A stretch of 64,000 bases of DNA, from NCBI RefSeq assembly GCF_016584665.1, contig NZ_BBJB01000048.1:1-64000 (forward strand), given 5' to 3'. The DNA is from Pseudanabaena sp. lw0831 (GTDB lineage: Bacteria > Cyanobacteriota > Cyanobacteriia > Pseudanabaenales > Pseudanabaenaceae). The position numbers were made by a program, and so were the translations under genes. The notes beneath the pieces are model-generated. The model made no database searches. It was not told the DNA's origin and saw only the letters and a list, made by a program, of their open reading frames with translations. Positions 19,146 through 59,458 of the stretch are shown piece by piece (positions within the stretch are counted from its first letter, which is position 1; the number at the start of each line of letters is the position of its first letter).

Positions 19146-19536
19146 TGGCAACATCTCCACGCAAAGCAGCTTGCAAATCAATAGCCGCTTGTTTGGCTTG
19201 GGCGATCGCCTTTTCGCCACTGCCTTTAATCGTCACTTCGCGATCGCCGATCTTCACATGGACTTCGATCGGCTTTTCCCCAAACTTCTCACCGACAAAA
19301 TTAAAAAAGCCAATTACTTTGTCGAACTTAATCTCAGCCGTCAATGCCCCAACCAGTTTATCGATACCACCTTTAGTGCCTACTTCAGAGCTTAGATCGT
19401 CAGTACGCTCTACAGTTTCAGCATCGCCTTGCTCCCGTAGCTGCTTCAGCAATTTCTTAGCAAACTCTTGTCGTTCATACTCATCCAAACTGAGATCATC
19501 TAGCGCAAAAGTAACCTCAACTAAAGACTCGCTCAC
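19138..19536 (-). CDS. Small EACC1-like effector-associated protein
   Basis: This 132-residue protein uses a GTG start. It has acidic helical N-terminal sequence (LDEYERQEFAKKLLKQLREQ), a GTKGGIDKLVGALTAEIKFD helix, and a beta-rich end (IEVHVKIGDREVTIKGSGEK) followed by a final helix. This plan resembles the effector-associated constant component EACC1, which sits directly before effectors such as caspases in predicted bacterial conflict systems. The resemblance is by pattern, not by a search. Its stop overlaps the caspase start (ATGGCTAA), so the two are almost certainly translationally coupled and function together. Confidence 0.7.
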   Translation of the reverse strand: MSESLVEVTFALDDLSLDEYERQEFAKKLLKQLREQGDAETVERTDDLSSEVGTKGGIDKLVGALTAEIKFDKVIGFFNFVGEKFGEKPIEVHVKIGDREVTIKGSGEKAIAQAKQAAIDLQAALRGDVANG

Positions 19537-43180: not shown

Positions 43181-44344
<1,164 letters not shown>

Positions 44345-44431
44345 TTACAAAAAATTTGAGTTACAGTTTCCAAATTAACCCTATCAGGATTTATCTCGTT
44401 TGTGATGTACAAGACTGAAATTTTTTAAGTT

Positions 44432-44534
44432 GTAAGTACTTTTCCAAAATAAATTACCCAAATTTGTAAGGTTGCGTCACTGCGGGGCGCAACCTTACAA
44501 ATTTGGGTTTGTAATTAATTATGCTCATCTACCT
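44432..44534. repeat. Bracketed palindromic element
   Basis: Left end TAAGTACTTTTCCAAAATAA and right end (reverse complement) TAAGGTAGATGAGCATAATT flank a hairpin 44456-44509 (arms ACCCAAATTTGTAAGGTTGC). The right end matches the end at 36039, and the layout matches 23916-24022. Confidence 0.75.
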
Positions 44535-44571
44535 TATGTGTCGAGAAATACATGGAATGTTTGGTTTGTAT

Positions 44572-44702
44572 CAGCAATTTTCATTATGGAACCGATTTTG
44601 GTATTTCCAGCGCCAAAGGTGCTGGAAATACCAAAATCGGTTTTTTGAAAGCTCGCCGTAGGCAGACTTTCAAAAAACCGATTTTTATAATGAGAATTGC
44701 TG
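44572..44702. mobile_element. 131-bp MITE with CAGCAATT... ends and 9-bp target duplication
   Basis: The ends CAGCAATTTTCATTAT and (inverted) CAGCAATTCTCATTAT bracket an interior of two hairpins. Flanks are GGTTTGTAT (44563-44571) and GGTTTATAT (44703-44711), an 8-of-9 target-site duplication. No ORF is inside. A second copy with the same ends is at 62742. A short hairpin follows at 44706-44747. Confidence 0.85.
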
Positions 44703-44878
44703 GGTTTATATAGATTACTCTCGACTTTTCGAGAGTAATCTATATAATGTATGTTTGGTACAATCACGCAATTTAGCCGATCGCAGCTTTAAGTCGGCAA
44801 GTGTAATGTATTGAAATTAAGATAGCCAAGAGTAGTTATAAAGCTATTCACTAGTTAGCCTAGGACGATTAGTCAAGT

Positions 44879-45943
44879 ATGCTTTCGATTGCCGAACTTG
44901 CCCATAAACGAGATCCAAAGGCGATCGCCGAAATTATTCGTCAGGAGTTACAGCCCCTTGACATCGAGCAGCTTTATGTTGCCGTAGATATTGTCGATAG
45001 TAGTTTAGAGCTACAAATTCGGACAGATTCTGCCATTGACAAAGAAAAACTGCTGACATTAGTACATAGCAAACTTCAAAATTTGCATATAGAATCATTA
45101 GCTAAATTTAGGATTCACTGTTGGCGCAATGATGAAGAAACGCACAAACAGCGCCTGCTATGGACGGAGCAATTTATGCTAGATCTTCCAAAATCATCAC
45201 TGACTCCATTTCCAGACATAGATCCAGATGTGAATAGTAAGCGACCAGAAACGCGATCGCCAGAGCCGCAACTTTCTAAGCATTCTGTCTTACAGAATGC
45301 GATCAAGAAAATTGCCCCAACAAATTCTCAAGCTCAAAAACATCTTCTAGCTGCTGATTTAGATCAGCAAGCTCTTGCGAATGGCTTAACAATTAAATCA
45401 ACTGATCTTGCCAAAGCTAATAGATCGCAGCTTCAGTCATCTGATAGTAATTATTGGCAGTTGTTGTTTGTAGGATTATCGATTGTCGCACTAGGATTGG
45501 GAATTGGTGCATCAGTCAGAGCAATTACATCAAAAACCGCTATTGAGTCAAGTTCTTCCTCATCATTAGCAACCCCATCAGTTGAGAATCAAGAAACAAA
45601 AAATACAACAACTACAACAAAAAGCACTCCTAGTCAGACTATCCAACCATCTGCCGCAACTACTCAAACTACACCTAAAGCTAATCCTTCTTCAGTTGCC
45701 CCGATCGCGAATCCAAATGAACAGGAACAAGTTATAACCTTGGAAAAGTTTAATCGCATTCAAAAAGGAATGACTATTGAGCAGGTGGAAAAAGTTTTTG
45801 GTACATCTGGCAAAGTTATTGCTGAGAATAATTCAAGCAACAGCATCGGACAGGTTTATTCTTGGAAAAATCCTCAGGGTAGTAATGCGATCATTGAGTT
45901 TAAAGATGGTCAAGTTGTGGCTAAAGCTCAAGCAGGTTTATAA
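44879..45943 (+). CDS. Membrane protein with SmpA/DUF3862-like C-terminus
   Basis: The 354-residue protein has an N-terminal conserved module (~1-110: SIAELAHKRDPKAIAEIIRQ, HCWRNDEETHKQRLLWTEQF), a polar linker, one membrane helix (~200-220), a long Ser/Thr/Pro-rich disordered segment, and a C-terminal domain (~290-350: ITLEKFNRIQKGMTIEQVEK, VFGTSGKVIAENN) with the KGMTxxQVxxxFG pattern of SmpA/BamE/DUF3862 folds. Those domains bind proteins at membranes. I cannot name the protein. Confidence 0.75.
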   Translation: MLSIAELAHKRDPKAIAEIIRQELQPLDIEQLYVAVDIVDSSLELQIRTDSAIDKEKLLTLVHSKLQNLHIESLAKFRIHCWRNDEETHKQRLLWTEQFMLDLPKSSLTPFPDIDPDVNSKRPETRSPEPQLSKHSVLQNAIKKIAPTNSQAQKHLLAADLDQQALANGLTIKSTDLAKANRSQLQSSDSNYWQLLFVGLSIVALGLGIGASVRAITSKTAIESSSSSSLATPSVENQETKNTTTTTKSTPSQTIQPSAATTQTTPKANPSSVAPIANPNEQEQVITLEKFNRIQKGMTIEQVEKVFGTSGKVIAENNSSNSIGQVYSWKNPQGSNAIIEFKDGQVVAKAQAGL

Positions 45944-45980
45944 AAAAGAGAGAGGGCGCAAAGCGCCCTCTCTCTTTTTT
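45942..45980 (+). terminator. Terminator after the SmpA-like gene
   Basis: Perfect 18-bp arms (AAAAAAGAGAGAGGGCGC), loop AAA, ending in six Ts. It includes the gene's stop region. Confidence 0.85.
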
Positions 45981-46078
45981 GTTGCTATTGCTATAAAATT
46001 ACATATTGGGTAGCTAACTAATTTCTTGATTCAGACAGCTAGAAAAACCCAGTAAAAGCCTCGTGGGAGAAAAATTTT

Positions 46079-46720
46079 TTGGGTATCGATTTACGCAGCT
46101 ATGTCTACTTAGACAATCTTCAAAAACAACATGCTGCTTACTTAGGAACGATCGCACAAGGATTTTTACCCTTACCAGGTGACACCTCCCTCTGGATCGA
46201 AATTTCCCCAGGTGTTGAAATTAACCGCATTACTGACGTTGCTCTAAAATCAACTTCAGTACGTCCAGGTGTGCAAATTGTTGAGCGTTTGTATGGACTA
46301 CTAGAAATTCATTCGGCAAGTCAAGGGGAAACCCAAGCCGCAGGTCGGGCTATTTTAGAGATGCTGGGCGTGACCGAAGAAGATCGGATTAAGCCAAGAT
46401 TGTTATCTAGTCAAATTATTCGCAATATTGACGCACATCAAACCCAGTTAATTAATCGCTTTCGGCGAGGGCAGATGTTGCTGTCTGGGCAAACCCTGTA
46501 CATCATGGAAGTGGAACCCGCTGCCTATGCGGCTCTTGCGGCTAATGAAGCTGAAAAAGCTGCCTCGATTAATATTCTGGAAATTGTCGCCGTAGGTAGC
46601 TTTGGGCGTTTATATCTCGGTGGCGAAGAGCGAGATATTATGGCAGCTTCGGAGGCGGTGTTGAATACGATTAACAATGTTAAAGGTCGTGATGTGTACG
46701 GTATCCATCTCAAAGAGTAA
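46079..46720 (+). CDS. Protein with two BMC-type microcompartment domains
   Basis: The 213-residue protein starts at a TTG (TTGGGTATCGAT), with GGGAG 8-12 bases upstream as a ribosome-binding site; no closer ATG exists. Two domains of BMC shell-protein type can be seen: ~50-95 ([40 protein letters not shown]) and ~160-205 ([40 protein letters not shown]). Tandem BMC proteins form pseudohexamers. This one is distinct from CcmK/CcmO in sequence and lies far from any carboxysome gene in this window. Function is not known. Confidence 0.75.
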
Positions 46721-46739
46721 TCAAAATTTGCGAAGAATA

Positions 46740-46794
46740 AACCCAAACCCGTAAGGTTGCTCCCCTGCGGGGAGCAACCTTACGGGTTTGGGTT
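46740..46794. terminator. Perfect 26-bp-arm hairpin between convergent genes
   Basis: Arms AACCCAAACCCGTAAGGTTG... with loop TGC. It lies between the BMC-domain gene and the zinc-ribbon gene and overlaps the latter's stop codon. Confidence 0.75.
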
Positions 46795-47083
46795 AGAGAT
46801 CATCTTCCCAGCCACAGCAATTACAGCGCCATTGTTCAGGTGGAATCCGCATTCGGGAAAAGGCTGTGCGGCATTCTGGACATTTACCTGTAAAGATGGG
46901 ATGCCAGCCACATTCTGTTTCCATGGCGGGATCATAACTATGGGGATCGTCAGGTTCCCACAATTCCGCTGAGACAAAATCTGAGCAATGTCCCCACTCT
47001 GGCCCGTAAGGATGTACTGCACAGACCAAAAGTTGGCTGTGAGAGTAAAAATTACAGCGATCGCACAGAGATATTTTTGCCAT
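46793..47083 (-). CDS. Small cysteine-rich zinc-binding-type protein
   Basis: The 96-residue protein has paired cysteines: SLCDRCNF at the N-terminus, then GKCPECRTAF and WRCNCCGWEDD near the C-terminus. These are consistent with zinc ribbons. The middle is rich in Trp/Pro/His (CAVHPYGPEWGHCSDFV). It is conserved-looking and compact, but I do not know its function. The longer upstream ORF on the same strand in another frame is a shadow. Confidence 0.7.
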   Translation of the reverse strand: MAKISLCDRCNFYSHSQLLVCAVHPYGPEWGHCSDFVSAELWEPDDPHSYDPAMETECGWHPIFTGKCPECRTAFSRMRIPPEQWRCNCCGWEDDL

Positions 47084-47279
47084 AGATGTATTTTATCGCT
47101 TTCGCCAGTCTTGTTAGCATATACAGCAATTTGCTTTCAAATCCGCCACAATAAAACCCATTGCGGGGCTACGCCCTGCGACCCTTTTTGTGGTGGGTTT
47201 GATCGATAACTGCTGTAAAACCCAAAAAGCTTGAGGCGGCGCTTCGCGCAGTCTCAAGCTTTTTGGGTTTTGATTTGGG
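47084..47279. other. Intergenic region with two hairpins
   Basis: A hairpin of the AAAACCCA family lies at about 47144-47200 (imperfect), and another at 47217-47271 (arms AAAACCCAAAAAGCTTGAG, loop imperfect). They separate the zinc-ribbon gene and the DUF3084 gene on the minus strand. No gene is seen. Confidence 0.5.
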
Positions 47280-48644
47280 TTAACTAAATCGAGCAATTTC
47301 AATACCATTTTGACGAATTACTAGCTCTAAAATCAGTGAGCTAGCAGGGAAAATAGCTTCCTTAGCTACAGCCCTAATTTCGTAGGGAGACTTAAGTTCG
47401 CTCACTACTTTAAAAAGCTCGGTCAATGCGTCAGGAGGAAAATTGCCGACTTTGCCTGTAAGTGGATTAGCTAGGACTCCCTCACGACGAGCGCGAAAAC
47501 TAACTAACAAAAATAGTTGCTCAATTCTCGACGCAAGAGCCTGTGGCGATAGGTCAGTGGTAAATTGTAAGGAGGCAATTTCAGCACCTGCGGCAAATAT
47601 TTGGCGGTTTAGGGTCACATCAGCAGCGATCGCAACTCTGGTCTCGCGTTTTAGAAAATTACCAGCAGAAAGAATCCGAATCACATAGCTTTTTCCGTCT
47701 TTGATCCGATTGAGCAGTCCTTCGATCTGCGCCTCTGTAATTTTAATGACTGGTTCTTGGGGAGCTTGATCGGGGAGGAAATCTAATAGTTCTCGGGCAT
47801 TCCGCTCGGCTTGGAGTAGTAGTTGGGTACTGGCTTGACGTAACTCAGCTTGGCTAAGATTTGGACGCACAACCCCTATCGATAAAATTTGATCGGCAAA
47901 AATAGCGACGTTACCCTTACGTAAGGCTTCAAGACTAATCAGCAATTGCTCACGGGCGGATTCTAGAGAGGCAACTTCTGAGCCAAGAGCTACCCGTTGT
48001 TTTTCGATTTCCACTAAGCGCTGTTCTGATTCATCGACTCTTTGTTTGAGCGTTTCGCGATCCCGAGAAATACTGGCTAGCTCTGTGGAAATTCGCTCTT
48101 TTTCATCCCGAAGCTGCTTACTTTCGGCTTGGAGATTTTCTTGCTCGGCACTCAAACTCTTGATGCGATCGCGCAGGTCGGCTTCCTGCTGCGAGGCTTT
48201 TTGCAATTGCTCGTCAGCTTTTTCAAATTTGCTTTCCACTGACTGTAACAAAGCCTGCGTCTCTGACTGTTTCCGCAGAGCTTGGACTAACGACTTGTTA
48301 ATTTCCCCTAACCGTTGTTGCGCTTTTTCCTGTTCAGTTTTCGCGGCATTTAGCTCAGTTTCGATTTTTTGCTTTTGTTCTTGGCTACTAGATAGCTCCG
48401 AGCGAATACTCTCAAGGCGAAACAATCCATCCCTGAGCTGTCCGTTTAGTAGCAATAAAATTCCTAAGGTTGAGGCAGAGATCATTCCGCCTGTGGCGAT
48501 CGTGACGACTGTGGCGGTGTCACGCGGTCTCAATTTGAATATACTAAGCCGCGCTTTTCCAACCTTAGTGCCAATGCGATCGCCTAAAGTTGCGATCATG
48601 CCTCCTAAGATCAAAATCGCTAAAATCAGCGTATATCCAGCCAT
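47280..48644 (-). CDS. DUF3084 coiled-coil membrane protein
   Basis: The 454-residue protein has two N-terminal membrane segments (~1-20 and ~45-70, VVTIATGGMISASTLGILLL), then ~170 residues of coiled coil (ELSSSQEQKQKIETELNAAK and following), and a conserved globular end (~260-450) with FADQILSIGVVRPNLSQAEL and YVIRILSAGNFLKRE. This matches the cyanobacterial DUF3084 family, which is membrane associated. Its function is not established. It is divergent from MoxR across a palindrome-containing gap. Confidence 0.92.
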   Translation of the reverse strand: MAGYTLILAILILGGMIATLGDRIGTKVGKARLSIFKLRPRDTATVVTIATGGMISASTLGILLLLNGQLRDGLFRLESIRSELSSSQEQKQKIETELNAAKTEQEKAQQRLGEINKSLVQALRKQSETQALLQSVESKFEKADEQLQKASQQEADLRDRIKSLSAEQENLQAESKQLRDEKERISTELASISRDRETLKQRVDESEQRLVEIEKQRVALGSEVASLESAREQLLISLEALRKGNVAIFADQILSIGVVRPNLSQAELRQASTQLLLQAERNARELLDFLPDQAPQEPVIKITEAQIEGLLNRIKDGKSYVIRILSAGNFLKRETRVAIAADVTLNRQIFAAGAEIASLQFTTDLSPQALASRIEQLFLLVSFRARREGVLANPLTGKVGNFPPDALTELFKVVSELKSPYEIRAVAKEAIFPASSLILELVIRQNGIEIARFS

Positions 48645-48686
48645 GTAACTCCTAAGTCCTCACACTGTTGATTTTAGCAGATCCAC

Positions 48687-48740
48687 GCCCACGAAAGCAG
48701 TAGAGGCAATTCATGAATTGCCTCTACTGCTTTCGTGGGC
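48687..48740. repeat. 54-bp perfect palindrome in a divergent promoter gap
   Basis: Each arm is 27 bp; the centre is GGCAATTCATGAATTGCC. It lies between divergent DUF3084 and MoxR genes, so it cannot be an ordinary terminator for either. The central motif is like the one at 32942-32981, so it is a repeated unit. Confidence 0.75.
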
Positions 48741-48799
48741 AAGCGAGCCGCAATAGGCTAGTATGACAAGTATTGCAAAATTCGATCTTCACAAGCTTG

Positions 48800-49747
48800 A
48801 TGGGGAACATGGAAAAGCAACTCAAAGTACAACAATTAGTTGACAATCTGGCGAAGGCGATCGTTGGCAAAGATGAAGCCATTCAACTGGTCTTGGTGGC
48901 ACTATTTTCTGGCGGTCATGCCTTACTAGAAGATGTGCCTGGGGTCGGCAAGACTTTACTCGCCAAATCACTGGCTGCTTCTATATCTGGAAAATTTCAG
49001 CGTGTGCAATGTACTCCCGATCTATTGCCCACTGACATTACGGGGACAAATATCTGGAATCCCCAAAAAGGTGAGTTTCAGTTTTTGCCAGGACCAGTAT
49101 TTGCAAATGTTTTGCTGGCTGATGAAATCAATCGGGCGACCCCACGCACCCAGTCAGCATTGTTAGAGGTAATGGAAGAGAGTCAAGTCACCGTTGATGG
49201 TATATCACGTAAAGTTCCCTCACCATTTTTTGCGATCGCCACTCAAAACCCCATCGAATATCAAGGCACTTTCCCATTGCCAGAGGCACAACTTGATCGC
49301 TTTGCCCTGTCCTTTAGTATTGGCTATCCCAATGAAGCGGAAGAGCTAGAAATGCTGAAAAGGATGCAAATTGGGAAAATTGGTTCAGCTCAATTAGAAG
49401 CATGTATCACCCCTGAAGAAGTACTAGAGATTCGTCAACTCTGCACTCAAGTCCCTGTTAGTGATGCGACTAGCCAGTACATTGTGAATATTGTCCGTGC
49501 TACTCGTAATGATGAAGAAATTACCCTTGGCGTGAGTCCTAGAGGTACAACAGCGTTGTTGCGATCGGCTCAGAGTTATGCCTTTATTCGACAAATGCTC
49601 GATCTCGATCGCAAGTCTGATTATGTCCTACCTGATGATGTGAAGTTTCTTGCCCCCTATGTTTTAGGTCATCGAATTATGGCAGCAGGAAGGCGATCTC
49701 CGAAGAAGATCGTTCAGCGATTACTAGATGTTGTACCTGTTCCTTAA
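48800..49747 (+). CDS. MoxR-family AAA+ ATPase
   Basis: I start at ATG 48800 (MGNMEKQLKVQQ); 48809 is an alternative and a TTG at 48773 is less likely. The ~315-residue protein has Walker A (EDVPGVGKTLLAKSLAA), Walker B (VLLADEINRATPRTQSALLE), a sensor 1 (FFAIATQNPIEYQGTFPLPE) and LDRFALSFSIGYP. This is MoxR, a chaperone-type ATPase that usually acts with a von Willebrand A-domain protein. No such partner is nearby. Full length. Confidence 0.94.
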   Translation: MGNMEKQLKVQQLVDNLAKAIVGKDEAIQLVLVALFSGGHALLEDVPGVGKTLLAKSLAASISGKFQRVQCTPDLLPTDITGTNIWNPQKGEFQFLPGPVFANVLLADEINRATPRTQSALLEVMEESQVTVDGISRKVPSPFFAIATQNPIEYQGTFPLPEAQLDRFALSFSIGYPNEAEELEMLKRMQIGKIGSAQLEACITPEEVLEIRQLCTQVPVSDATSQYIVNIVRATRNDEEITLGVSPRGTTALLRSAQSYAFIRQMLDLDRKSDYVLPDDVKFLAPYVLGHRIMAAGRRSPKKIVQRLLDVVPVP

Positions 49748-49760
49748 TTTATGACTTGAG

Positions 49761-49811
49761 ATTTGGAAGCGATCGCATTTCCCTAAATCTACAGTGCGAT
49801 CGCTTCCAAAT
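49761..49811. terminator. Hairpin between MoxR and Uma2 genes with HIP1 in the arms
   Basis: Arms ATTTGGAAGCGATCGCA and TGCGATCGCTTCCAAAT are 17 bp with a 17-base loop. It lies between two convergent genes. Confidence 0.6.
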
Positions 49812-49852
49812 CATTTCCATATAAATCACTTTTATTTATTACCTCTAGATCA

Positions 49853-50425
49853 CTACTTAAAAGACACTCGCTTGTACAGATCCATTAGACTAATTTCAAA
49901 ATTCACTGACTCTAGTTTTAGAACTGCATCTTCACCTACATAGTCAGCTAAGATCCATTTACCATCAGTCTGTTTTGCATATTGTTCCACTCCATAGCTA
50001 GTTTGCTCGACTAAGATATATTCTTTGAAACTAGGAATAGAGCGATAAAGCTTAAATTTATTTTCACGATCATATTCACCGGTTGAATTAGAGAGAACTT
50101 CTACAATTAAGCAGGGATTAGTAATCCCAGTCTGTTTCTCATCAGTAAAAATTGGCTGTCCCTCAACCACTATCACGTCAGGATAAGCGTAACGCTTCTG
50201 ATCTGGCATCCATAGACGCATATCACTCATAAAGACAGCGTTATCTAAATCTTCTAGTGCTAACAAAATTCGAGCCAAAAATTTAGCAGTCAAAATATTA
50301 TGAGTTGCCGTTGCTCCTTCCATAGGCATGATATCTCCGTTGACAAATTCACTTTTAAACTCGGCTTTTTCTTCTAGTTCGAGATATTCATCTACGGTGA
50401 AGCGCTTAGTTGTTGCAAGTACCAT
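49853..50425 (-). CDS. Uma2-family protein (DUF820, PD-(D/E)XK fold)
   Basis: The 190-residue protein has the Uma2 pattern: FTVDEYLELEEKAEFKSEFV, NGDIMPMEGATATHN, the PDVIVVEG segment near residue 78, CLIVEVLSNSTGEYDRENKF and YRSIPSFKEYILVEQ. The folds are those of restriction-type endonucleases, with the PD and ExL-type positions in place. These genes are very abundant in cyanobacteria and may be mobile; the function is unproven. Confidence 0.93.
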   Translation of the reverse strand: MVLATTKRFTVDEYLELEEKAEFKSEFVNGDIMPMEGATATHNILTAKFLARILLALEDLDNAVFMSDMRLWMPDQKRYAYPDVIVVEGQPIFTDEKQTGITNPCLIVEVLSNSTGEYDRENKFKLYRSIPSFKEYILVEQTSYGVEQYAKQTDGKWILADYVGEDAVLKLESVNFEISLMDLYKRVSFK

Positions 50426-50505
50426 GAGTTATTAGCCTCCCAACTTTGATTTAATTATATCCAAAGGTTGACGCTTTGCTCTGACCTTCACAGTTAGAGC
50501 CAGAT

Positions 50506-50542
50506 AAAATATTGCGGTGGGCTTCTCTCGCCGCAATATTTT
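50506..50542. terminator. Short hairpin upstream of the Uma2 gene
   Basis: Arms AAAATATTGCGG pair across a CTCTCG-containing loop. It lies between divergent Uma2 and cyclase-NACHT genes. Confidence 0.45.
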
Positions 50543-50647
50543 TGGATTTTATATTGTGATACGGATCGCATTTTTAAGTGATATATCTCATCGTGTAACG
50601 ACAAGGAAGATATGATACTTTGAAATAAGTACAAATCACCAAGTGCT

Positions 50648-52900
50648 ATGGATATCCCCCTTTCCCAGACAAGAGGACAGCAAACACTAGCGGCGATCGC
50701 CTTTAGCGACATTGTTGGATTTAGCGCTCGAATGGGAAAGGACGAAATACATACGCTAAGTTTAGTGGAACGTGACTTTCAGTTTATGACTGAACTATGT
50801 CAAAAGTTTACTGGCAGGGTGCTAAAAACTACAGGTGACGGTTTACTAATGTATTTTGTTAGTGCTGTCCAAGCCGTTGATTGTACTCGCGAGATGCAAA
50901 CTGAGTTTGCGAAGTCTGCGAATATTTTGCCTAAAAATGATGTCCTCGCACATCGGATTGGGATTCATTTGGGTGATGTCTTCTTTAATGAAACCGATGT
51001 AATGGGTAATGGAGTAAACATCGCGGCGCGGCTTCAGGCAAAAGCTGAGGTTGGCGGTATTTGTATTTCTCAAACTGTCTATGATGTTGTTAAAAATCGC
51101 CTAGAGCTAGATGTTACTTATCTTGGTGAATTAGAACTAAAAAATATTCAAGAACCAATTCCCGCTTATAACGTTTTAATTCCTTTTTTAGATCCTTCTT
51201 TGCATAGCGATCGCCAAGATATAGCTGCTAAATCGCCCAAATCATCTCGACAAATAACTCAACAAGGCTATCGCGATCGCCAAATCATGCTGAATAAAAT
51301 ACGAAACTTTTGGGTTGAGGGTGTTTTAGAGACATCGATTCATGATAAGGCGCTGATCGAATTGGGTTTGCAAATAAGATTAGATGCGATCGCGCATCCG
51401 TGGCATATAGAATGGGCGACCTCTGATGAAGCGAGGAAGCCTTTGCCAACAGGTACAAAAGCAATTAATCAATTTGATCGCCTTGGCACTGGTCGAACCC
51501 TCTTGATTTTGGGCGATCCAGGGGCGGGTAAAACGACAACGCTATTGGAACTGACGCGAGAATTGATTGTCCGAGCAGAGCGAGATAGTGAATTACCGAT
51601 GCCAATTGTGTTTAACCTTTCGTCATGGCAAGACAAGCAGAGCTTAGCTGACTGGATGGTATTGGAACTGAACACAAAGTACCAAGTTCCGAAAAAGATT
51701 GGGAAATCATGGGTGAGCGAACAGCAGTTACTGGCGATGTTGGATGGTTTGGATGAGGTGAGTAGCGATCGCCGCAATGCTTGTGTGGAGGCAATCAATC
51801 GCTTTCATGGTGAATATGGACAGACGGAAATCGTGGTATGCAGTCGGATGAAGGACTATGAGGCTTTGGCTCAGCGATTGCAGTTTCAGGGTGCGATTTT
51901 CATTCAGCCCTTAGAGGAATCGCAGGTATTTGAATATTTCGATCGCCTTGGTGCTGAGTTGGAGGGTGTGCGGGAAATGCTGACTACGGATGCGAAGTTA
52001 TTGGAGTTGGCGAAGACTCCTTTGATGGCGAATATTATGGCGATCGCATATCGCGGTATGTCGGTGACAGATTTGATCAAGATGAGTCTATCGGAAAACC
52101 ATGTGCAGCATTTGTTTGATACTTATATCGACCGTATGCTAAGGCGAAGACCTGACAAGAGTTATGCGCCAAGTAAGGTGAAGCGGTGGTTGGGGTTTCT
52201 GGCTAGGCAGTTAAAGAATGAGTCGCAAACTGTTTTTTTGATTGAGAGAATCCAGCCGAGTTGGTTAACTGGAAATGCCAGAGCAATTTATGCCACTTTA
52301 ACAGCGATTATTCTAGCTCCGATTATTTCCCTGATCGTTTTGCCTAGTTCTATCGGAATATTGATTCAACTAACAACGTCAAATACTCTAGCTGAAGCAG
52401 ATAAATATTTTAGGAGCTTTGGGGGTGAACTTCCCGCATTTGCTGCGACGTTTATACTTACAGATAAAGAACGATTATATTTAGGAGTCCTTTGTGGTTC
52501 TCTTCTAATTGGATTTGTTGTTGCGATATTGTGGGGACTTACCATTAGATTCAACAACAAAAAAATTAGTAAAATCGACATTCTTATCCGTTCGATAGCT
52601 TGTTCATTCATAGTTTGTGGGCTAGGAATCGCTCATATAATAAGCAGTCCACTCTGGATATTTTTATTTTTTTTGTTGGGCTTTCTAAGTAGTTTCATGA
52701 TTTTCGACATACTAGAAAGACCAATTAAACCAACTGAAACTTTAAAATGGTCTTGGAAATCTTTTAAAGAAAATTTAACTATTGGGCGATCCATTGGGCT
52801 GATATTTGGATTGATTGCAGGATTACTTATAACATTGATTGATATTTCGGTGTTTATAAGTTTATTTACTTTGTTGTCTCCAATGGACACTATTAAATAG
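50648..52900 (+). CDS. Class III nucleotide cyclase fused to NACHT NTPase and membrane helices
   Basis: The 750-residue protein has a cyclase domain (~12-180) with all key residues: metal Asp21 (FSDIVGFSARM) and Asp64 (KTTGDGLLMYF), substrate-selecting Lys60 and Asp117, Asn124 and Arg128 (NGVNIAARLQ). It should be an active adenylate-type cyclase. A NACHT module follows at ~270-500: Walker A GDPGAGKTTTLLELT (289-), Walker B LLAMLDGLDEVSS, then sensor-type VVCSRMKDYEAL and a LAKTPLMANIMAIAYRG motif. A linker then leads to ~4-6 hydrophobic helices (~565-745). NACHT switches usually detect a trigger; coupling this to cAMP-type production is unusual. The protein looks truncated at the C-terminus, as the next ORF carries the rest. 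Confidence 0.88.
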   Translation: MDIPLSQTRGQQTLAAIAFSDIVGFSARMGKDEIHTLSLVERDFQFMTELCQKFTGRVLKTTGDGLLMYFVSAVQAVDCTREMQTEFAKSANILPKNDVLAHRIGIHLGDVFFNETDVMGNGVNIAARLQAKAEVGGICISQTVYDVVKNRLELDVTYLGELELKNIQEPIPAYNVLIPFLDPSLHSDRQDIAAKSPKSSRQITQQGYRDRQIMLNKIRNFWVEGVLETSIHDKALIELGLQIRLDAIAHPWHIEWATSDEARKPLPTGTKAINQFDRLGTGRTLLILGDPGAGKTTTLLELTRELIVRAERDSELPMPIVFNLSSWQDKQSLADWMVLELNTKYQVPKKIGKSWVSEQQLLAMLDGLDEVSSDRRNACVEAINRFHGEYGQTEIVVCSRMKDYEALAQRLQFQGAIFIQPLEESQVFEYFDRLGAELEGVREMLTTDAKLLELAKTPLMANIMAIAYRGMSVTDLIKMSLSENHVQHLFDTYIDRMLRRRPDKSYAPSKVKRWLGFLARQLKNESQTVFLIERIQPSWLTGNARAIYATLTAIILAPIISLIVLPSSIGILIQLTTSNTLAEADKYFRSFGGELPAFAATFILTDKERLYLGVLCGSLLIGFVVAILWGLTIRFNNKKISKIDILIRSIACSFIVCGLGIAHIISSPLWIFLFFLLGFLSSFMIFDILERPIKPTETLKWSWKSFKENLTIGRSIGLIFGLIAGLLITLIDISVFISLFTLLSPMDTIK

Positions 52901-52965
52901 CCTCAATTGTTTGATTTTAAAGTTTCTATCGTTTTTCATAATTAAACTCTCTGACTTATATAAGT

Positions 52966-53718
52966 ATGACTTTATTCCATATCATCTCCTTACTATTCTT
53001 AATGCTAATTAATTTATTAATCTGCGGACTTATTGGTCAGCTAATTGGATCTTTAATTAGCGGATTACTTGCTGGACTTGCTGGAACAGAGATCGAGCGA
53101 AGTACATTTCCAAATCAGGGTATAAGGCAGTCAATTTCTAACGGTATAATATTGGCGGTTATTGGTTCAGTTTTACTTTCATCTATATTTTCTCTATTTG
53201 GTTTGCCAAACCTAATAGGAATGGGTTTGGGACTACTGCTTGGTTTATTTGCATTAGAAGCAGCCTTAAAACATTTAGTTCTGAGGGTAGTCCTTTTTAT
53301 TGGCAGATGGAGTCCTTGGAACTATGCTGATTTTTTAAACTATTCTGTAAATAGTGTTCTTCTTCAAAGAATTGGTGGTGGATACATCTTTGTCCATAGG
53401 AGTTTGTTAGAGCATTTTGCGTCTCTTCCTATTGGTTATAGTATTAATCATCAACATCAATCGAGCGAACCTACATTCAAAAAAGGAAAGCGGTTAATAT
53501 CAACTGTTCTTATTTCGATCAGTTTAGCAATCGCTTGGAACGGATGGCAATCTTGGTTTGGCAGTAACGGCACTCCTACTGAATGTACGATCAGCACTAT
53601 ATCTGAGACAAGAAAAGGTGTTGTTCGGACTGCTACCTTTACACCTAATACTGATTGTGAAGCCATGCGTAAACTGGTGGAAGAAGGGAAACCATTACCA
53701 ACTATATCTCAACCCTAA
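52966..53718 (+). CDS. C-terminal half of NACHT membrane protein (split from preceding ORF)
   Basis: This 250-residue frame begins with membrane helices (ISLLFLMLINLLICGLIGQL) and contains segments normally found in one chain with NACHT: GTEIERSTFPNQGIRQSISN, then SPWNYADFLNYSVNSVLLQR, IGGGYIFVHRSLLEHFASLP. These end typical cyanobacterial NACHT-membrane proteins. It sits 66 bp after the upstream stop, in another frame, with TAA codons between, so a single frameshift does not restore the reading. It ends with another helix and a polar tail (GTPTECTISTISETRKGVVR). It could be a separate subunit or the remnant of a broken gene. Confidence 0.75.
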   Translation: MTLFHIISLLFLMLINLLICGLIGQLIGSLISGLLAGLAGTEIERSTFPNQGIRQSISNGIILAVIGSVLLSSIFSLFGLPNLIGMGLGLLLGLFALEAALKHLVLRVVLFIGRWSPWNYADFLNYSVNSVLLQRIGGGYIFVHRSLLEHFASLPIGYSINHQHQSSEPTFKKGKRLISTVLISISLAIAWNGWQSWFGSNGTPTECTISTISETRKGVVRTATFTPNTDCEAMRKLVEEGKPLPTISQP

Positions 53719-53809
53719 ATCTTGTTCCTGATTGGTTCTAGAGACATACCGCTGTTCACAAATTTGAATTTATAAGTTAAAACTTTGATTGAATGAAGTC
53801 AAGAAACAT

Positions 53810-55126
53810 ATGCTTAATAAACTCGCCAATATTGATAGTCTTTCTCCTAAACTACATAAAGACCAAAGAAACAGATTTCGCTTTATCTTACATTGGTTTA
53901 ATATTATCAGTATCAGCTTTTTGGTGATCTGGGTTGTTATTGGTAACTTTGCTGCATACCAACTTGAGCAGCCAGTCTTGATCGCAAGAAGCGATCTAGT
54001 TCGTCAATTCCCTCAAAGTGCAACTAATGATTCTCAATTGAGGCGGAAAGAAATACAGGAAAAATTTAATACAATTATGAGTATGTCGGACGATATCCGC
54101 AGTGATTTGTCGAAATATGTCGAAGACTCTAATATTACACCTTCTAATTCTTTACAAAACTATCTTGCAACCAAGTCAGAAAACTTAGCAGTGCTTCGTA
54201 GCTACGTACTGCAAAGTGATATTCCTATTCAAGAGATATTTGATTTGGATATACTCATAAATAAGGGGACATTCGACAGTTTACCAAGAAGTTTTCTTGG
54301 AGAATTCACTTGGCAACGCATATTAATCGCTGATGCAGTTAACAATTATCGCCTCGGAAAGATGCAAATCGCATTTGATTCCCTAGAAGTTGCTTGGAGG
54401 CTTAATCAAGCTAATAGAAATCAGCCTATTCTTCTAAGTCAACTTGTTGCTAATATTTGTGATAGCATACAAATTCAAGGGCTACGCAAGATAGCTATTG
54501 TTCCTCCAATTTGGCAAAAAAGATTAGTCTCTTTTGAGACGAGTAAGTCAATGCTTCGGTCTGCTCTAAAGTTTGAAACTTTTGCGCTTTATGGACTTAT
54601 CAGAAACTTTCCATTAAGAAAAGGTGGTTCCGAGAAAGATGGAAAATCTATGTCTCTCTTTAACCGCTTTTTACATCCTTTTGTTCAGCCATATTATACA
54701 CTTTCTGCTGTAGATACATGGCAAGTAGCAATGCGAGATCTTGATCTGGGATTTAATCAAGATCCTTGTATGCCAATTTCTTATGAGGATATGCCTAAAC
54801 TTTCTTCATGGAATATCCTAGGTCTTGTCGGATCATCCTCCTCTAACTTCCAAGTATACAAATTAACTAAGCGGCAAATTGATATGGAATTAATGCAAAA
54901 GATTCTAAAATTACGCGAAGTTGCATCTCAAACTGGTAAATTCCCCCAGACCATAGCAGGAATAGATTCTTCTGTAATTTGCAAAAATCTTCGCTATGTT
55001 TACCAGCCTTCCGCCGATGGTGAGTCAATGACAATTTCTCTAAGCAATCAAAATCGACCAGAATGGCTGGCTGAACGTGAAGGTGATATACCTCTCAGCT
55101 ACACTACCAAATTAAGAAAGCTATAG
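53810..55126 (+). CDS. Membrane-anchored protein of unknown function
   Basis: I choose ATG 53810 over TTG 53789; the protein is ~438 residues. It has one N-terminal membrane helix (~25-50, LHWFNIISISFLVIWVVIGN), a large polar domain with helices (DDIRSDLSKYVEDSNITPSN, NYRLGKMQIAFDSLEVAWRL, QLVANICDSIQIQGLRKI), and a C-terminal region (LREVASQTGKFPQTIAGIDS, YQPSADGESMTISLSNQNRP). The last part recalls a pilin-type or general secretion-type beta element, but I cannot name it. It directly follows the NACHT ORFs on the same strand and may be transcribed with them. Confidence 0.65.
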   Translation: MLNKLANIDSLSPKLHKDQRNRFRFILHWFNIISISFLVIWVVIGNFAAYQLEQPVLIARSDLVRQFPQSATNDSQLRRKEIQEKFNTIMSMSDDIRSDLSKYVEDSNITPSNSLQNYLATKSENLAVLRSYVLQSDIPIQEIFDLDILINKGTFDSLPRSFLGEFTWQRILIADAVNNYRLGKMQIAFDSLEVAWRLNQANRNQPILLSQLVANICDSIQIQGLRKIAIVPPIWQKRLVSFETSKSMLRSALKFETFALYGLIRNFPLRKGGSEKDGKSMSLFNRFLHPFVQPYYTLSAVDTWQVAMRDLDLGFNQDPCMPISYEDMPKLSSWNILGLVGSSSSNFQVYKLTKRQIDMELMQKILKLREVASQTGKFPQTIAGIDSSVICKNLRYVYQPSADGESMTISLSNQNRPEWLAEREGDIPLSYTTKLRKL

Positions 55127-55416
55127 TTTTTCTTGTCAAATGAAAAACCCTCTTCGCTTTCATCGACAAATTATCCCTGCGTTGTGAGGTTTGGGCAAAG
55201 CATTCCCAAACTTAGGGGATCTGAAAATCATAGATTCTAGTGAGAATGCTTAGCCCCTTCAGCTTTTTGGACTTAGTAGATGACATCTCTACATATTAGC
55301 AAGTTACAATTCATCACAACATTAGAAAATGCGATCTCATTCACAGCAACTTTAGCCAAATTACAGTTAAGTTATACTGATTATAAATTTCAAAGTTTTA
55401 TTAGGACGAAAAAAAG

Positions 55417-55671
55417 ATGCAAATCGCCTTAAAACCAGAACAGGAAAACTTTATCCGTAAAAAGCTCAAAGATGGAAAATATCAAAATGTTGATAATCTA
55501 TTAAACTTTGCATTTCAACTTGTAGAAGAATACGAAATTAAACAGCAAAAACTGATCGAACTACAGAAAAAGATTGCCGAAGGAACAGAACAAATTAGGC
55601 GATGCGATGCTGTTGATGGCGAATTGGTATTTCAGCAGTTTCAAGACAAACTGGCGCAGATCGCGATCTGA
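55417..55671 (+). CDS. ParD-like type II antitoxin (orphan)
   Basis: The 84-residue protein has the start of ribbon-helix-helix ParD-type antitoxins (MQIALKPEQENFIRKKLKDG, KYQNVDNLLNFAFQLVEEYE), followed by a helical tail. A ParE-like toxin normally follows, but the next bases hold only a fragment of tex and then xisH. It may be an orphan antitoxin or part of an eroded cassette. Confidence 0.75.
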   Translation: MQIALKPEQENFIRKKLKDGKYQNVDNLLNFAFQLVEEYEIKQQKLIELQKKIAEGTEQIRRCDAVDGELVFQQFQDKLAQIAI

Positions 55672-55734
55672 AAACTATATTTGAAGACTTTGCGGATGAA
55701 TAGATTAATTGACAATAGCTAACAGAATCTTAAT

Positions 55735-55858
55735 GCGATAATCGCATCGATAAACTGATCCGTTTTAGAGATTCATTTACTTCCAAAACACGCACCTTCA
55801 CCACCTGACCAACCTTAACGATTTGCTTCGGATCGCTGACAAAGCGATTATTAGCTAA
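55735..55858 (-). pseudogene. Second copy of the tex 3' end
   Basis: These ~124 bases match the 3' end of tex at about 56722-56845 at roughly 90%, and the frame stays open (RFVSDPKQIVKVGQVVKVRV, then LEVNESLKRISLSMR). The differences I can see within the matching coding part are synonymous. The fragment lacks the rest of the gene. It flanks the xisH-xisI cassette on the side opposite tex. Confidence 0.85.
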
Positions 55859-55960
55859 AGTTTTGTTTTAACTAACCGTCAAGTTTTGTAGAGCGATCGC
55901 CATTTAATGAGACTGTTGAGAGCGATACAATGACATCAACGCAATCTCAGCGTAATCTTT

Positions 55961-56389
55961 ATGCCAGCTAAAGACATCTATCACGATAACGTTTGTAACG
56001 CCCTCATCAAAGACGGTTGGACGATCACAGATGATCCCCTTGTTCTTAGCATAGGAACACGTTCTGTATATATTGACTTGGGCGCAGAAAAACTAATCGC
56101 CGCCGAACGAGACAATCAAAAAATTGCCGTTGAAATCAAAAGTTTTCTGAGTTCTTCTCCCATCCGCGATCTGGAAAATGCTTGGGGACAATTCTTTTTA
56201 TATGCCAGAGCGCTCAAAAAAAGAGAGCCAGATCGATGTTTGTACTTGGCGATTCGTCTCAGTACTTTTGAGACAATATTTCAAGAAGAGGCTGGACAGC
56301 TTATATTAGAAGAACCTGATTTTCGTCTTATTGTTTTTGACCCAGATCATGAGGACATAATTCAATGGCAACCACAGATAACACCCTAG
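55961..56389 (+). CDS. xisH: XisH-family protein
   Basis: The 142-residue protein matches XisH: MPAKDIYHDNVCNALIKDGW, LVLSIGTRSVYIDLGAEKLI, AAERDNQKIAVEIKSFLSSS, PIRDLENAWGQFFLYARAL. Acidic and Lys residues in IDLGAEKLI and VEIKSF fit a PD-(D/E)XK nuclease-like fold. The name comes from the Anabaena fdxN element, where it is needed for excision; most copies in cyanobacteria are elsewhere and unexplained. It overlaps the xisI start by 25 bases. Confidence 0.93.
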   Translation: MPAKDIYHDNVCNALIKDGWTITDDPLVLSIGTRSVYIDLGAEKLIAAERDNQKIAVEIKSFLSSSPIRDLENAWGQFFLYARALKKREPDRCLYLAIRLSTFETIFQEEAGQLILEEPDFRLIVFDPDHEDIIQWQPQITP

Positions 56390-56712
56390 ACTCATGGCGC
56401 AAGACACTAGAAACTTTGCTCCAATACTATGCCGATCTTCCCTATCGCTATGGAGACGTGAGTGCTTACGTTGTCGTTAGCCGCGATCGCAACCACTTCA
56501 TGCTGATGCGCGAGGGATGGGAAAACAGTCGGCGAGTACATGGATGTGTTGTTCATGCCGAAATTCGTAACGACAAAATTTGGATTCACTATGATGGTAT
56601 TGAAGATGGGATTACGGAAGAACTGGTTGCAACAGGAGTTCCCAAGGATCATATTGTCTTAGCTTTTCATCCGCCTCAAGTGAGAGAGCATACTGGATAT
56701 GCTTTGGCATAA
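56365..56712 (+). CDS. xisI: XisI-family protein
   Basis: The 115-residue protein matches XisI: WRKTLETLLQYYADLPYRYG, NHFMLMREGWENSRRVHGCV, NDKIWIHYDGIEDGITEELV, and ATGVPKDHIVLAFHPPQVRE. Its ATG lies inside the end of xisH, so the two are translationally coupled. The stop is just 9 bases before the tex stop on the other strand. The 115-residue length is typical; compare the longer orphan at 14986. Confidence 0.93.
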   Translation: MATTDNTLDSWRKTLETLLQYYADLPYRYGDVSAYVVVSRDRNHFMLMREGWENSRRVHGCVVHAEIRNDKIWIHYDGIEDGITEELVATGVPKDHIVLAFHPPQVREHTGYALA

Positions 56713-56721
56713 GCTCTGATG

Positions 56722-58878
56722 CTAAGATCGCATTGATAAACTGATCCGTTTTAGAGATTCATTTACTTCCAAAACGCGCACCTTTACCACCTGACCGACT
56801 TTGACGATCTGCTTTGGATCGCTGACAAAGCGATCGGCTAATTGCGAAATATGGATTAATCCATCTTGATGTACACCGATATCCACAAATGCGCCAAAGT
56901 TAGCGACATTGGTAATAATCCCTTCTATCTCCATGCCGATTTGCAGATCAGAGATTTTCTGAATTGCATCACTGAAGGTCGCATATTTGAACTCCGCACG
57001 CGGGTCACGTCCTGCTTTCTCTAGCTCTCGTAAAATATCGCGCAGGGTTGGCTCACCGATCGCAGCGGTTACATATTGCTTCAGGTTAACTGTTTTCAGC
57101 TTGTCCGCTGCTTGCGAGATTTCTGATAGTGGTACATTCAGGTCACGCGCGATCGCAATCACCACACTATAACTTTCAGGATGCACAGCCGTGTTGTCTA
57201 AAGGATTAGCACCACCCCGAATCCGCAAAAATCCTGCTGCTTGTTCAAAGGCTTTTGCGCCGAGCTTTGGGACTTTAAGCAAATGACGGCGATCGCAAAA
57301 TGCACCATTTTGATTGCGATAGGTAATGATGTTATTGGCAACGGTGGCGCTGAGTCCAGACACAAAAGTGAGTAGTTCTTTAGAGGCTGTGTTCAGGTCT
57401 ACACCGACGAAGTTAACGCAGCTTTCTACGGTTTCATCGAGCTTCTTTTTTAATAATTTCTGATCGACATCATGCTGATATTGTCCAACTCCGATTGACT
57501 TGGGATCGATTTTTACTAGCTCCGCAAGAGGATCTTGCAAGCGTCTGCCGATGCTGACAGCGCCGCGTACCGTTAAGTCGAGATCGGGAAACTCTGCGAT
57601 CGCAACAGGACTAGCGGAATAAATTGAAGCCCCCGACTCGTTAACCATTACTTTGATTGGTGGGTTTTTTAATCCCTGAATTGATTCCATTACAAAGGCA
57701 TCGGTTTCTCTTCCTGCTGTACCATTGCCGATCGCAATTAATTGAATCTGATACTTCTCAATCAAAGTTCTCAATGTACGGGCTGCTTGTTCTATTTGAG
57801 CTAGCGCTTGATGAGGAAAGATAGTTTGATATTCCAAAAACTTGCCTGTCTCACTAATTACGGCAGTTTTACAACCTGTACGAAATCCGGGATCGATCGC
57901 AAGGGTTGGTTTCATCCCTGCGGGAGCTGCTAGCAACAGGTCGCGCAGGTTAGTTTCAAAGGTTTTGATCGACTCCCCATCTGCCCAAGCTTTCTTCTCC
58001 GTGATGACCGATGCGATCGCTGAAGCTTTGATCAAGCGGTTAAAGGCATCCTTGAGCATATCCTGATAAAACTGCTTTACGACTGGAGTCTTCGCCCGAA
58101 TTTGTTGCGCCTCTAAGTAACTCAGCACATGCTCTTCGTCAAAATCTAGATTGAGGGCAAGGATTTCTTCAGTTTCGCCGCGCAACAAAGCAAGAAGATT
58201 ATGGGGGGCGATCGCCTTGACTTTTGCTTGATAGTCGCGGTACATCTCAAATTTGGTTGTGCCGACTGCGTGGGTTGCCTTGATCTGCGAAACGAAGAAA
58301 CCTGACTGCATCAAGCATTCTCTAATGTAGGCTCGATATTCTGCGCTGTCAGCGATTTCTTCAGCAAGAATGTCTGATGCACCTTTGAGGGCTTCTTCGA
58401 CAGTTTTCACTTGCTCTGACAAATATTTAGTGGCTTCTTGTGATAACGACGCAGTATTAATGTTCGGACGGTTGAAGGCTTTGATGGCTTCCGCAAGTGG
58501 TTCAAGTCCTTTTTCTCTTGCGATCGCAGCTCTAGTTCTGCGCTTAGGACGATAGGGCAGATATAGATCTTCGAGTTCTGTCTTTTGGATGCTTGCCTCG
58601 ATTTTGGCTTTCAGCGCATCGGTTAGCTTGCCTTGGTCAGCGATCGCTTGGAGAATTACGGCTTTGCGATCGCGTAGTTCGGTGAGATAGGCATAACGAT
58701 CTTGGAGATCTCTTAATTGGATCTCATTCATTTCGCCAGTACGCTCTTTACGATAACGGGCGACAAAGGGGATAGTTGCGCCTTCAGCAAATAGTTCTAG
58801 AGCATTTTTGATTTGTTCGGCGCGAAGAGAAAGTTCTTGGGCTATGAGTTGGATGATCAGCTGTTCAGGGTTCTGCAT
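56722..58878 (-). CDS. tex: Tex-type transcription accessory protein (S1 RNA-binding)
   Basis: The 718-residue protein has the complete Tex plan: an N-terminal helix-turn-helix region (LIIQLIAQELSLRAEQIKNA), YqgF-like fold (TLAIDPGFRTGCKTAVISET), HhH modules (CVNFVGVDLNTASKELLTFV, LKVPKLGAKAFEQAAGFLRI), and a C-terminal S1 domain (~635-718: GMEIEGIITNVANFGAFVDI). It binds RNA and affects transcription. It is full length, with its stop close to the xisI stop on the other strand. Part of its 3' end is duplicated at 55735-55858. Confidence 0.95.
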   Translation of the reverse strand: MQNPEQLIIQLIAQELSLRAEQIKNALELFAEGATIPFVARYRKERTGEMNEIQLRDLQDRYAYLTELRDRKAVILQAIADQGKLTDALKAKIEASIQKTELEDLYLPYRPKRRTRAAIAREKGLEPLAEAIKAFNRPNINTASLSQEATKYLSEQVKTVEEALKGASDILAEEIADSAEYRAYIRECLMQSGFFVSQIKATHAVGTTKFEMYRDYQAKVKAIAPHNLLALLRGETEEILALNLDFDEEHVLSYLEAQQIRAKTPVVKQFYQDMLKDAFNRLIKASAIASVITEKKAWADGESIKTFETNLRDLLLAAPAGMKPTLAIDPGFRTGCKTAVISETGKFLEYQTIFPHQALAQIEQAARTLRTLIEKYQIQLIAIGNGTAGRETDAFVMESIQGLKNPPIKVMVNESGASIYSASPVAIAEFPDLDLTVRGAVSIGRRLQDPLAELVKIDPKSIGVGQYQHDVDQKLLKKKLDETVESCVNFVGVDLNTASKELLTFVSGLSATVANNIITYRNQNGAFCDRRHLLKVPKLGAKAFEQAAGFLRIRGGANPLDNTAVHPESYSVVIAIARDLNVPLSEISQAADKLKTVNLKQYVTAAIGEPTLRDILRELEKAGRDPRAEFKYATFSDAIQKISDLQIGMEIEGIITNVANFGAFVDIGVHQDGLIHISQLADRFVSDPKQIVKVGQVVKVRVLEVNESLKRISLSMRS

Positions 58879-59027
58879 TTATCTAAGCAACTCCATAGTC
58901 TGGATATGGACGTTTATGACGTTTTATAAGGAGGTAGCAATCCTAGCACAATGTCTTGTCTTGGTACTCTCATCACAATTAATTCTTCCATATAGTAGAT
59001 GTAAACCCAAGAGAGAGTTACGGCTTA
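58879..59027. other. Upstream region of tex
   Basis: This short stretch holds the tex 5' side and half of an AAACCCAAGAGAGAG-type palindrome arm. The second arm is missing because a MITE follows. No gene is visible. Confidence 0.4.
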
Positions 59028-59404
59028 GAGCGTGTTTGAGAAGTTTTTTACCCCCCTTAATCCTACCGTGTACACACAAGTCGGACTTACCCCCTTTTGT
59101 TCCCCCTTGATTTCATACACAAACTGAGATGTGTGTACACCGTAGCTTGCAAAGGGGGAGAATTCAAGTTTCCCCGCTTTGCAAGGGCGTTCATATACTT
59201 GGCACACTAAAGCGCTAAGCCCTCACCCCTAGCCCCTCTCCCGCAGAAGAGGGGAACAAGAAATCTAATATTTCTCCCCTTCTCCTGCGGGAGAAGGGGT
59301 TGGGGGATGAGGGGTGCGTCAAGTATATTAATGCCTTTGCAAGGGGGATTAAGGGGGGTAAAAGCAGAAATTTATACTAGCTAGGAGACTTCTCAAACAC
59401 GCTC
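59028..59404. mobile_element. 377-bp MITE, ends GAGCGTGTTTGAGAAGT, TTA duplication
   Basis: The ends GAGCGTGTTTGAGAAGT (59028-) and its inverted copy (ACTTCTCAAACACGCTC, ending at 59404) have ACCCCCCTTAATCC just inside each. TTA occurs at 59025-59027 and 59405-59407. These ends are typical of the IS5/ISL2-type group in cyanobacteria, as I recall. No transposase frame is inside; a hairpin of the CCCCTCTCC type sits in the interior. It is a non-autonomous element. Confidence 0.85.
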
Positions 59405-59458
59405 TTACCAGCCGCTATATAATCCTTGGCATAATTATTGTTGCGATCTTAAAAAAGT

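Follow-up and report, generated by a model that had tools for sequence, protein, structure and literature searches.

Soluble actinobacterial regulators of the Rv0386 type place a class III nucleotidyl cyclase ahead of a STAND-type NTPase and end in a DNA-binding HTH. NACHT proteins with N-terminal effectors are likewise known (PMC12169576), and in the bacterial examples described in the available parts of two reports the effector coupled to the switch is a nuclease, a phosphatase or of unknown type (PMC13092281, PMC12169576). In the bNACHT antiphage proteins, as the accessible text presents them, a central NACHT switch is joined to an N-terminal effector, for example a nuclease, and a C-terminal sensor is expected (PMC12169576). 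In DS-8 of DefensePredictor, NACHT is joined to a metallophosphatase that has been proposed to act on a cyclic nucleotide by degrading it, and both parts are needed for phage defence (PMC13092281, in the portion available). Cyclases in NTPase-switched conflict systems have also been described, the available text naming them as exchangeable domains of the VMAP ternary systems, iSTAND2 and system 4 (PMC7159879, PMC8195603).

The locus presented here, from Pseudanabaena sp. lw0831, resembles each of these in part. Its first gene, ORF1, has the central NACHT switch and N-terminal effector of bNACHT proteins; the effector, however, is a cyclase, a membrane region stands where a C-terminal sensor is expected, the C-terminal part lies on a separate ORF2, and neither ORF has an NCH-type Pfam match. 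With DS-8, compared by description only, ORF1 shares the joining of NACHT to a cyclic-nucleotide-linked enzyme, here a cyclase rather than a phosphatase. Unlike the VMAP ternary systems, iSTAND2 and system 4, it carries cyclase and NACHT in one chain with a membrane region, and unlike Rv0386-type regulators, whose order of cyclase and NTPase it shares, it carries hydrophobic segments, and no HTH was matched in it. The cyclase is of the same broad kind as that of Pycsar (PADLOC PycC match, E 1e-9), but it has adenine-type residues and is fused to NACHT, and no cNMP-binding effector neighbours it. ORF1 to ORF3 were considered as a Pycsar system and rejected: ORF2 has no Pfam match to E 0.01, ORF3 none up to E 10, neither matches PADLOC, and no cyclic-nucleotide-activated effector is adjacent. 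A literature search, mainly of open-access texts, found no description of a cyclase-NACHT-membrane protein, of a kinase-cyclase-NACHT fusion, of the ORF1/ORF2 split or of ORF3.

The cyclase-NACHT gene and its surroundings

The window is the whole stretch analysed, 64,000 nucleotides at positions 1 to 64,000 of contig NZ_BBJB01000048.1 (assembly GCF_016584665.1), forward strand. The features discussed are as follows.

50648..52900, + strand: ORF1, 750 aa, cyclase, NACHT and membrane region part 1
50690..51145, + strand: class III nucleotidyl cyclase domain, ORF1 residues 15-166, Pfam PF00211
51494..51946, + strand: NACHT NTPase domain, ORF1 residues 283-433, Pfam PF05729
52286..52858, + strand: membrane region part 1, five hydrophobic segments (Kyte-Doolittle cut-off), ORF1 residues 547-737
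52966..53718, + strand: ORF2, 250 aa, membrane region continued (three hydrophobic segments), the GGGYIFVHRSLLEHFA motif and a short two-cysteine tail
53374..53421, + strand: GGGYIFVHRSLLEHFA motif, holding HRSLLEHFA; near the C-terminus in unsplit relatives
53789..55126, + strand: ORF3, 445 aa, TTG start at 53789, one N-terminal membrane helix and the C327/C398 pair
49853-50425, - strand: Uma2 family gene immediately before ORF1 (PADLOC PDC-S03, E 1.9e-25), absent from the other two ORF1-ORF3 blocks
15474-17132, - strand: second cyclase gene, a marginal PF00211 match followed by a cNMP_binding domain
17205-19220, - strand: caspase (Peptidase_C14)-FGE-sulfatase fusion, adjoining the second cyclase gene on the same strand

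ORF1 runs from ATG at 50648 to TAG at 52898-52900, giving 750 aa, and the coordinates and frame of the earlier note are exact. The cyclase claimed there matches Guanylate_cyc (PF00211) at E 7.8e-15, with 55.4 bits against a curated cut-off of 21.9, and the six residues it named (D21, K60, D64, D117, N124 and R128, together DKDDNR) are all intact at their stated positions. In class III cyclases these positions comprise two metal-binding Asp, a substrate Lys/Asp pair and a transition-state Asn/Arg pair; K60 and D117 we take to be the adenine-reading pair, a fit to an adenine-specific cyclase. Among solved sequences the domain is closest to 3mr7 (E 4.8e-27), followed by the Ma1120 and lipJ cyclases. 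The NACHT assignment also holds, with PF05729 at E 7.8e-9 and 36 bits (cut-off 26.7) and the motifs LLILGDPGAGKTTT, LAMLDGLDEV and VVCSR; Walker A (GDPGAGKT) and Walker B (LDGLDE) are both present, placing the domain in the NACHT clade of STAND NTPases.

The membrane domain attributed to ORF1 is borne out by the five hydrophobic segments, although the receptor does not end there and continues onto ORF2 (52966-53718). C-terminal superstructure repeats such as LRR, WD or TPR are usual in NACHT STAND NTPases, if not obligatory; no family of these types was matched in ORF1 or ORF2 (Pfam, E 0.01), and hydrophobic segments stand in their place. Beyond the cyclase and NACHT, only NTPase relatives match ORF1 to ORF3 at the same threshold. 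AlphaFold models had a mean pLDDT of 35.5 for ORF1 (4 sequences) and 42.5 for ORF3 (3 sequences) and were set aside.

The earlier note had also placed the cyclase at 15474 in a similar setting. A cyclase match is there, though marginal (23.7 bits against 21.9, E 4e-5), but the gene has no NACHT match in Pfam and a cNMP_binding domain instead, and the aligned catalytic residues read DSDNNR against DKDDNR in ORF1, with S for K60 and N for D117. Its product may use another nucleotide, as substrate or as ligand. Where PADLOC matches Pycsar parts in this gene, it does so in the cNMP-binding region. The setting beside the caspase-FGE-sulfatase gene is a different one, and the parallel to ORF1 is loose and a poor one. 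Elsewhere in the window, 55961-56712 (+) matches XisH (Pfam) and overlaps a short ORF at 56365-56712, presumably XisI, and a similar ORF lies at 14986-15405.

Recurrence of the fusion, its chassis and a linked gene

The survey of cyclase-NACHT architectures that had been proposed drew on 388 class genomes, queried with the 942-aa protein of G014:C16 at no more than two scored candidates per genome, and on an overlapping set of 97 relatives, queried with ORF1; it covers the matches listed, and its counts are lower bounds. Cyclase and NACHT are joined in at least eight proteins from seven genomes (G000, G010, G014, G005, G314, G368 and G377), two of them in G014 and one in each of the others; the G005 gene is spread over two contigs that overlap by 50 residues at 98%. 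The architecture occurs in 4 of the 26 genus genomes. G314 encodes a single cyclase-NACHT-membrane protein of 823 aa, and two genomes from other families carry kinase-cyclase-NACHT-membrane fusions, one of 1186 aa in G368 (L074:595-4152; Pkinase E 1.1e-32) and one of 1080 aa in G377 (L075:1489-4728; E 1.6e-32). Hydropathy gives five to eight membrane segments among the seven unsplit proteins scanned. The cyclase-NACHT label requires four changes on the cyclase tree, at least two of them forced by starred branches, and four on the NACHT tree, at least one of them forced; the fusion may have arisen once or more often. Segments of ORF1 are matched by 521 plasmid records, none of them reaching 80% coverage, and in an empty-site comparison the flanking genes were far apart or on other contigs in the relatives listed.

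The wider setting of the NACHT-membrane part was examined in 39 aligned proteins from the loci at hand, chosen by similarity rather than at random and including every cyclase form apart from near-identical orthologues and the G005 gene broken across contigs. At E 1e-5 in Pfam, 38 carry NACHT (the remaining one, L076, has a weaker match, E 4.4e-5), 14 Pkinase, two of these being the kinase-cyclase forms, 5 Guanylate_cyc, 3 CHAT, 1 TIR and 1 a Tll0287-like domain, and the effector is N-terminal in the cases placed. On these alignments the NACHT-membrane part serves in cyanobacteria as a chassis with swapped effectors, and the proposal that the cyclase occupies the effector slot of a NACHT protein is well supported, given that Pkinase, CHAT and TIR swap there N-terminally. 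Neither a dead cyclase nor a dead NACHT, the conditions under which the earlier note would give up its sensor that makes a cyclic nucleotide when triggered, is apparent at the sequence level: DKDDNR is intact in all eight cyclase-NACHT proteins found, and Walker A and B patterns are present in 39 of 39 chassis proteins. One chassis protein (L080:748-3450, G199) has its Tll0287-like domain, with CxxCH, after an HRMLLEHFA motif and a hydrophobic stretch, and could be an NLR-like receptor to which a haem-based sensor has been added.

The cyclase module of ORF1 has counterparts of 50-65% identity in other contexts as well: before a kinase (L033, L059, L062, L067), before TIR and AAA_35 (L058) or AAA_35 (L066), with WD40 (L063, L065), behind CHAT (L061) and in an NB-ARC protein (L052). 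Of 17 cyclases compared from other contexts, 16 have all six catalytic residues intact, L067 having T at N124. The L052 protein (L052:3049-5298, G000:C29) is a second STAND-cyclase of the same genome as ORF1, with a cyclase module of 54% identity likewise on a STAND NTPase; it differs in that the NTPase best matches NB-ARC rather than NACHT and the cyclase follows about 110 residues.

ORF1, ORF2 and ORF3 are the only ORFs common to positions 44001-60000 of the window and the loci L046 (P. frigida ULC066bin1) and L047 (Pseudanabaena sp. ULC068bin1), and this block has different flanks in each of the three genomes. In ORF3, whose true start may be the ATG at 53810, positive residues precede the N-terminal membrane helix (hydropathy) and the C327/C398 pair is nearly invariant in the family alignment, features that would fit a periplasmic domain with a disulfide. 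The family is sparse, at 24 places in 22 of the 388 genomes. All 24 neighbourhoods were inspected, some ending at contig ends, and a NACHT gene lies directly upstream on the same strand at six: the window, L046 and L047; G257, where a TIR-NACHT-membrane chassis gene is about 35 bases away; G368:C18, where a kinase-cyclase-NACHT gene is under 10 bases away; and G168, where another NACHT type (with NCH2) is about 500 bases away. The remaining 18 have no NACHT neighbour by BLAST, and a divergent one could be missed because only some neighbours were run against Pfam. No ORF3 relative accompanies the unsplit genes of G014:C16, G005, G314:C52 and G377:C47; ORF3 is not obligatory.

An N interrupts the G368 copy of ORF3, which has 216 bases at 99.5% identity in common with the place in G368:C45, and the assembly may have broken a single gene into these two. 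Counting both places as one, and the three Pseudanabaena sites as one, leaves 21 loci with four hits, for which the chance of at least four is 4.7e-7 or 5.2e-5 if NACHT neighbours are assumed, as a rough guess, at 0.3% or 1% of loci; without the distant G168 case, at least three hits have a chance of 0.0012 at the assumed 1%. A tree built from 22 of the 24 places puts all six NACHT-adjacent copies in one weakly supported group of 10 (89/79). In G168 (L135:1748-9314) the ORF3 relative has the NACHT-NCH2 gene on one side and, on the other, a HEAT-repeat protein that weakly matches nSTAND1; a HEAT protein is also found 3' of the ORF3 relative in G146 (L142).

Proposed mechanism and purpose of the response

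ORF1 and ORF2 together probably form a membrane-anchored STAND (NLR-like) receptor with adenylate cyclase output, in which clustering would pair the cyclases and yield cAMP; the probability of this reading is put at roughly 0.58. An envelope signal would be met by the membrane region and the C-terminal tail, possibly with ORF3 as a periplasm-facing partner, and nucleotide exchange in the NACHT domain would then lead to clustering of the receptor. A class III cyclase needs to dimerise to be active, two catalytic domains being required to form its active sites, and clustering would therefore switch on cAMP synthesis in the cytosol, the product being read by cNMP-binding proteins. Proximity activation of this kind is the simplest reading; it suits the kinase and TIR members of the chassis too, the CHAT members less clearly. 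In favour of the receptor as a whole are the domain matches over their curated cut-offs, the conserved DKDDNR, the swapped effectors, the purifying selection, the linkage to ORF3 and the 13 cNMP_binding places of the genome. Against it count the numbers of membrane segments, which differ from homologue to homologue, the places where ORF3 or NACHT occurs without the other, and the distance of the nearest cNMP-binding genes. We infer the trigger, the topology, the assembly of ORF1 with ORF2, the clustering, the cAMP product, the role of ORF3 and the purpose of the response alike, and for the NACHT step the available text of one report states that the module enables oligomerisation and signal transduction (PMC12169576).

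The orientation of the receptor is suggested by its relatives. A hydrophobic stretch and two-cysteine tail occupy the position of the L080 Tll0287-like domain in all five close relatives. Covalent haem is attached to CxxCH outside the cytosol. Because the CxxCH domain sits at this position, and the two-cysteine tail recurs there, the C-terminus of the receptor may well face outward, with ORF3 as a possible outside partner.

As to what such a receptor is for, the flanks decide for neither defence nor ordinary signalling. An ordinary regulatory adenylate cyclase, whose STAND module would sense a cue such as light, nutrients or envelope state and whose cAMP would influence motility or metabolism by way of CRP-like regulators and play no part in defence, is given a little less than an even chance. 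The genome itself has 13 cNMP_binding places over the cut-off that could read such a signal, PADLOC gives no convincing known defence system for ORF1 to ORF3, and ten proteins from the flanks of the window, L046 and L047 gave only scattered or weak matches; TPR models match the gene before ORF1 in L047. Patchy occurrence in the genus and the swapping of TIR, CHAT and kinase effectors are, however, more typical of conflict systems, the adjoining Uma2 gene matches the phage-defence-candidate model PDC-S03, and in L046 a type IV restriction model hits an ORF some 3.3 kb beyond ORF3 (E 8.7e-10).

Some of the same observations bear on phage defence, in which infection or envelope damage would raise a cyclic nucleotide and lead to dormancy or death in a Pycsar- or bNACHT-like manner; this is a serious possibility, with the odds leaning against it. 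Its layout of N-terminal effector and NACHT is that of antiphage bNACHT proteins in the available text (PMC12169576), and cNMP cyclases are listed among the signal-generating domains of conflict systems in the accessible part of another source (PMC7159879). The patchy distribution, the three different flanks of the ORF1-ORF3 block and the Uma2/PDC-S03 gene adjoining ORF1 point the same way. Yet Uma2 is not part of the shared block, and Uma2 genes are common in cyanobacteria. No gene with a cNMP_binding domain that could serve as effector adjoins ORF1 to ORF3, the nearest on the contig being at 61298 (about 7.6 kb) and 15963 (about 35 kb), while the PADLOC PycC matches fall on the cyclase core at E 1e-9 at best, and no relative was confirmed in one viral_contigs scan, in which 119 stretches matched the pattern.

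Whatever the purpose, a product other than cAMP (cGMP, cCMP or cUMP) is improbable: class III cyclases vary in substrate, and the best PADLOC names for ORF1 are Pycsar cyclases, but K60 and D117 are retained in all eight cyclase-NACHT proteins found.

The split between ORF1 and ORF2 and its possible wider meaning

In unsplit relatives a single ORF runs on through the hydrophobic segments to a conserved GGGYIFxHRLLLEHFA-type motif, and ORF2, which starts 65 bases past the ORF1 stop in a different frame, is homologous to their C-terminal part. The 942-aa unsplit protein of G014:C16 (L049/L069) aligns with ORF1 residues 2-560 at 69% and with ORF2 residues 37-248 at 40%. The identical split is found in three genomes at 84-92% identity with both ORFs intact, L047 being 92% (ORF1) and 88% (ORF2) and L046 86% (both) identical to the window. 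By the Nei-Gojobori method over the three genome pairs, dN/dS comes to 0.078-0.092 in the cyclase, 0.075-0.085 in the NACHT part, 0.31-0.41 in the ORF1 membrane part and 0.28-0.34 in ORF2, values that indicate purifying selection on both ORFs, kept as proteins. Since the split is common to three genomes and both ORFs are under such selection, it is neither plain decay nor a slip in one assembly. That it marks a pseudogene with ORF2 as a relic is very improbable, for although unsplit homologues exist and the frame of ORF2 is closed upstream of its start, both ORFs are intact in all three genomes and dN/dS is well under 1 in each.

A single frameshift joining ORF1 and ORF2 is not possible as the sequence reads, because the ORF1 frame stops at 52898 and that of ORF2 is interrupted by stop codons at 52894, 52912, 52918 and 52939. 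Between about 52860 and 53009 the third frame is free of stops, and two shifts through it could in principle bridge the ORFs, a route that carries little weight.

In its widest form the proposal is tentative and, taken whole, rather unlikely: cyanobacteria may possess modular, envelope-facing NLR-like receptors in which a transmembrane NACHT chassis carries swappable outputs (kinase, cyclase, both, TIR or CHAT), and in one Pseudanabaena lineage the receptor may be made as two polypeptides, have ORF3 as a dedicated periplasmic partner and answer an external signal with a cAMP pulse through the clustering of cyclases. A membrane chassis bearing a second-messenger enzyme would tie NLR-like switching to cyclic-nucleotide and envelope signals. 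Close homologues that share the chassis but differ in output, be it kinase, cyclase, TIR or CHAT, would offer a route to what the switch senses, independent of the output, and the cyclase version has a product that is easily measured. The conserved split and the linkage to ORF3 point to specific partners.
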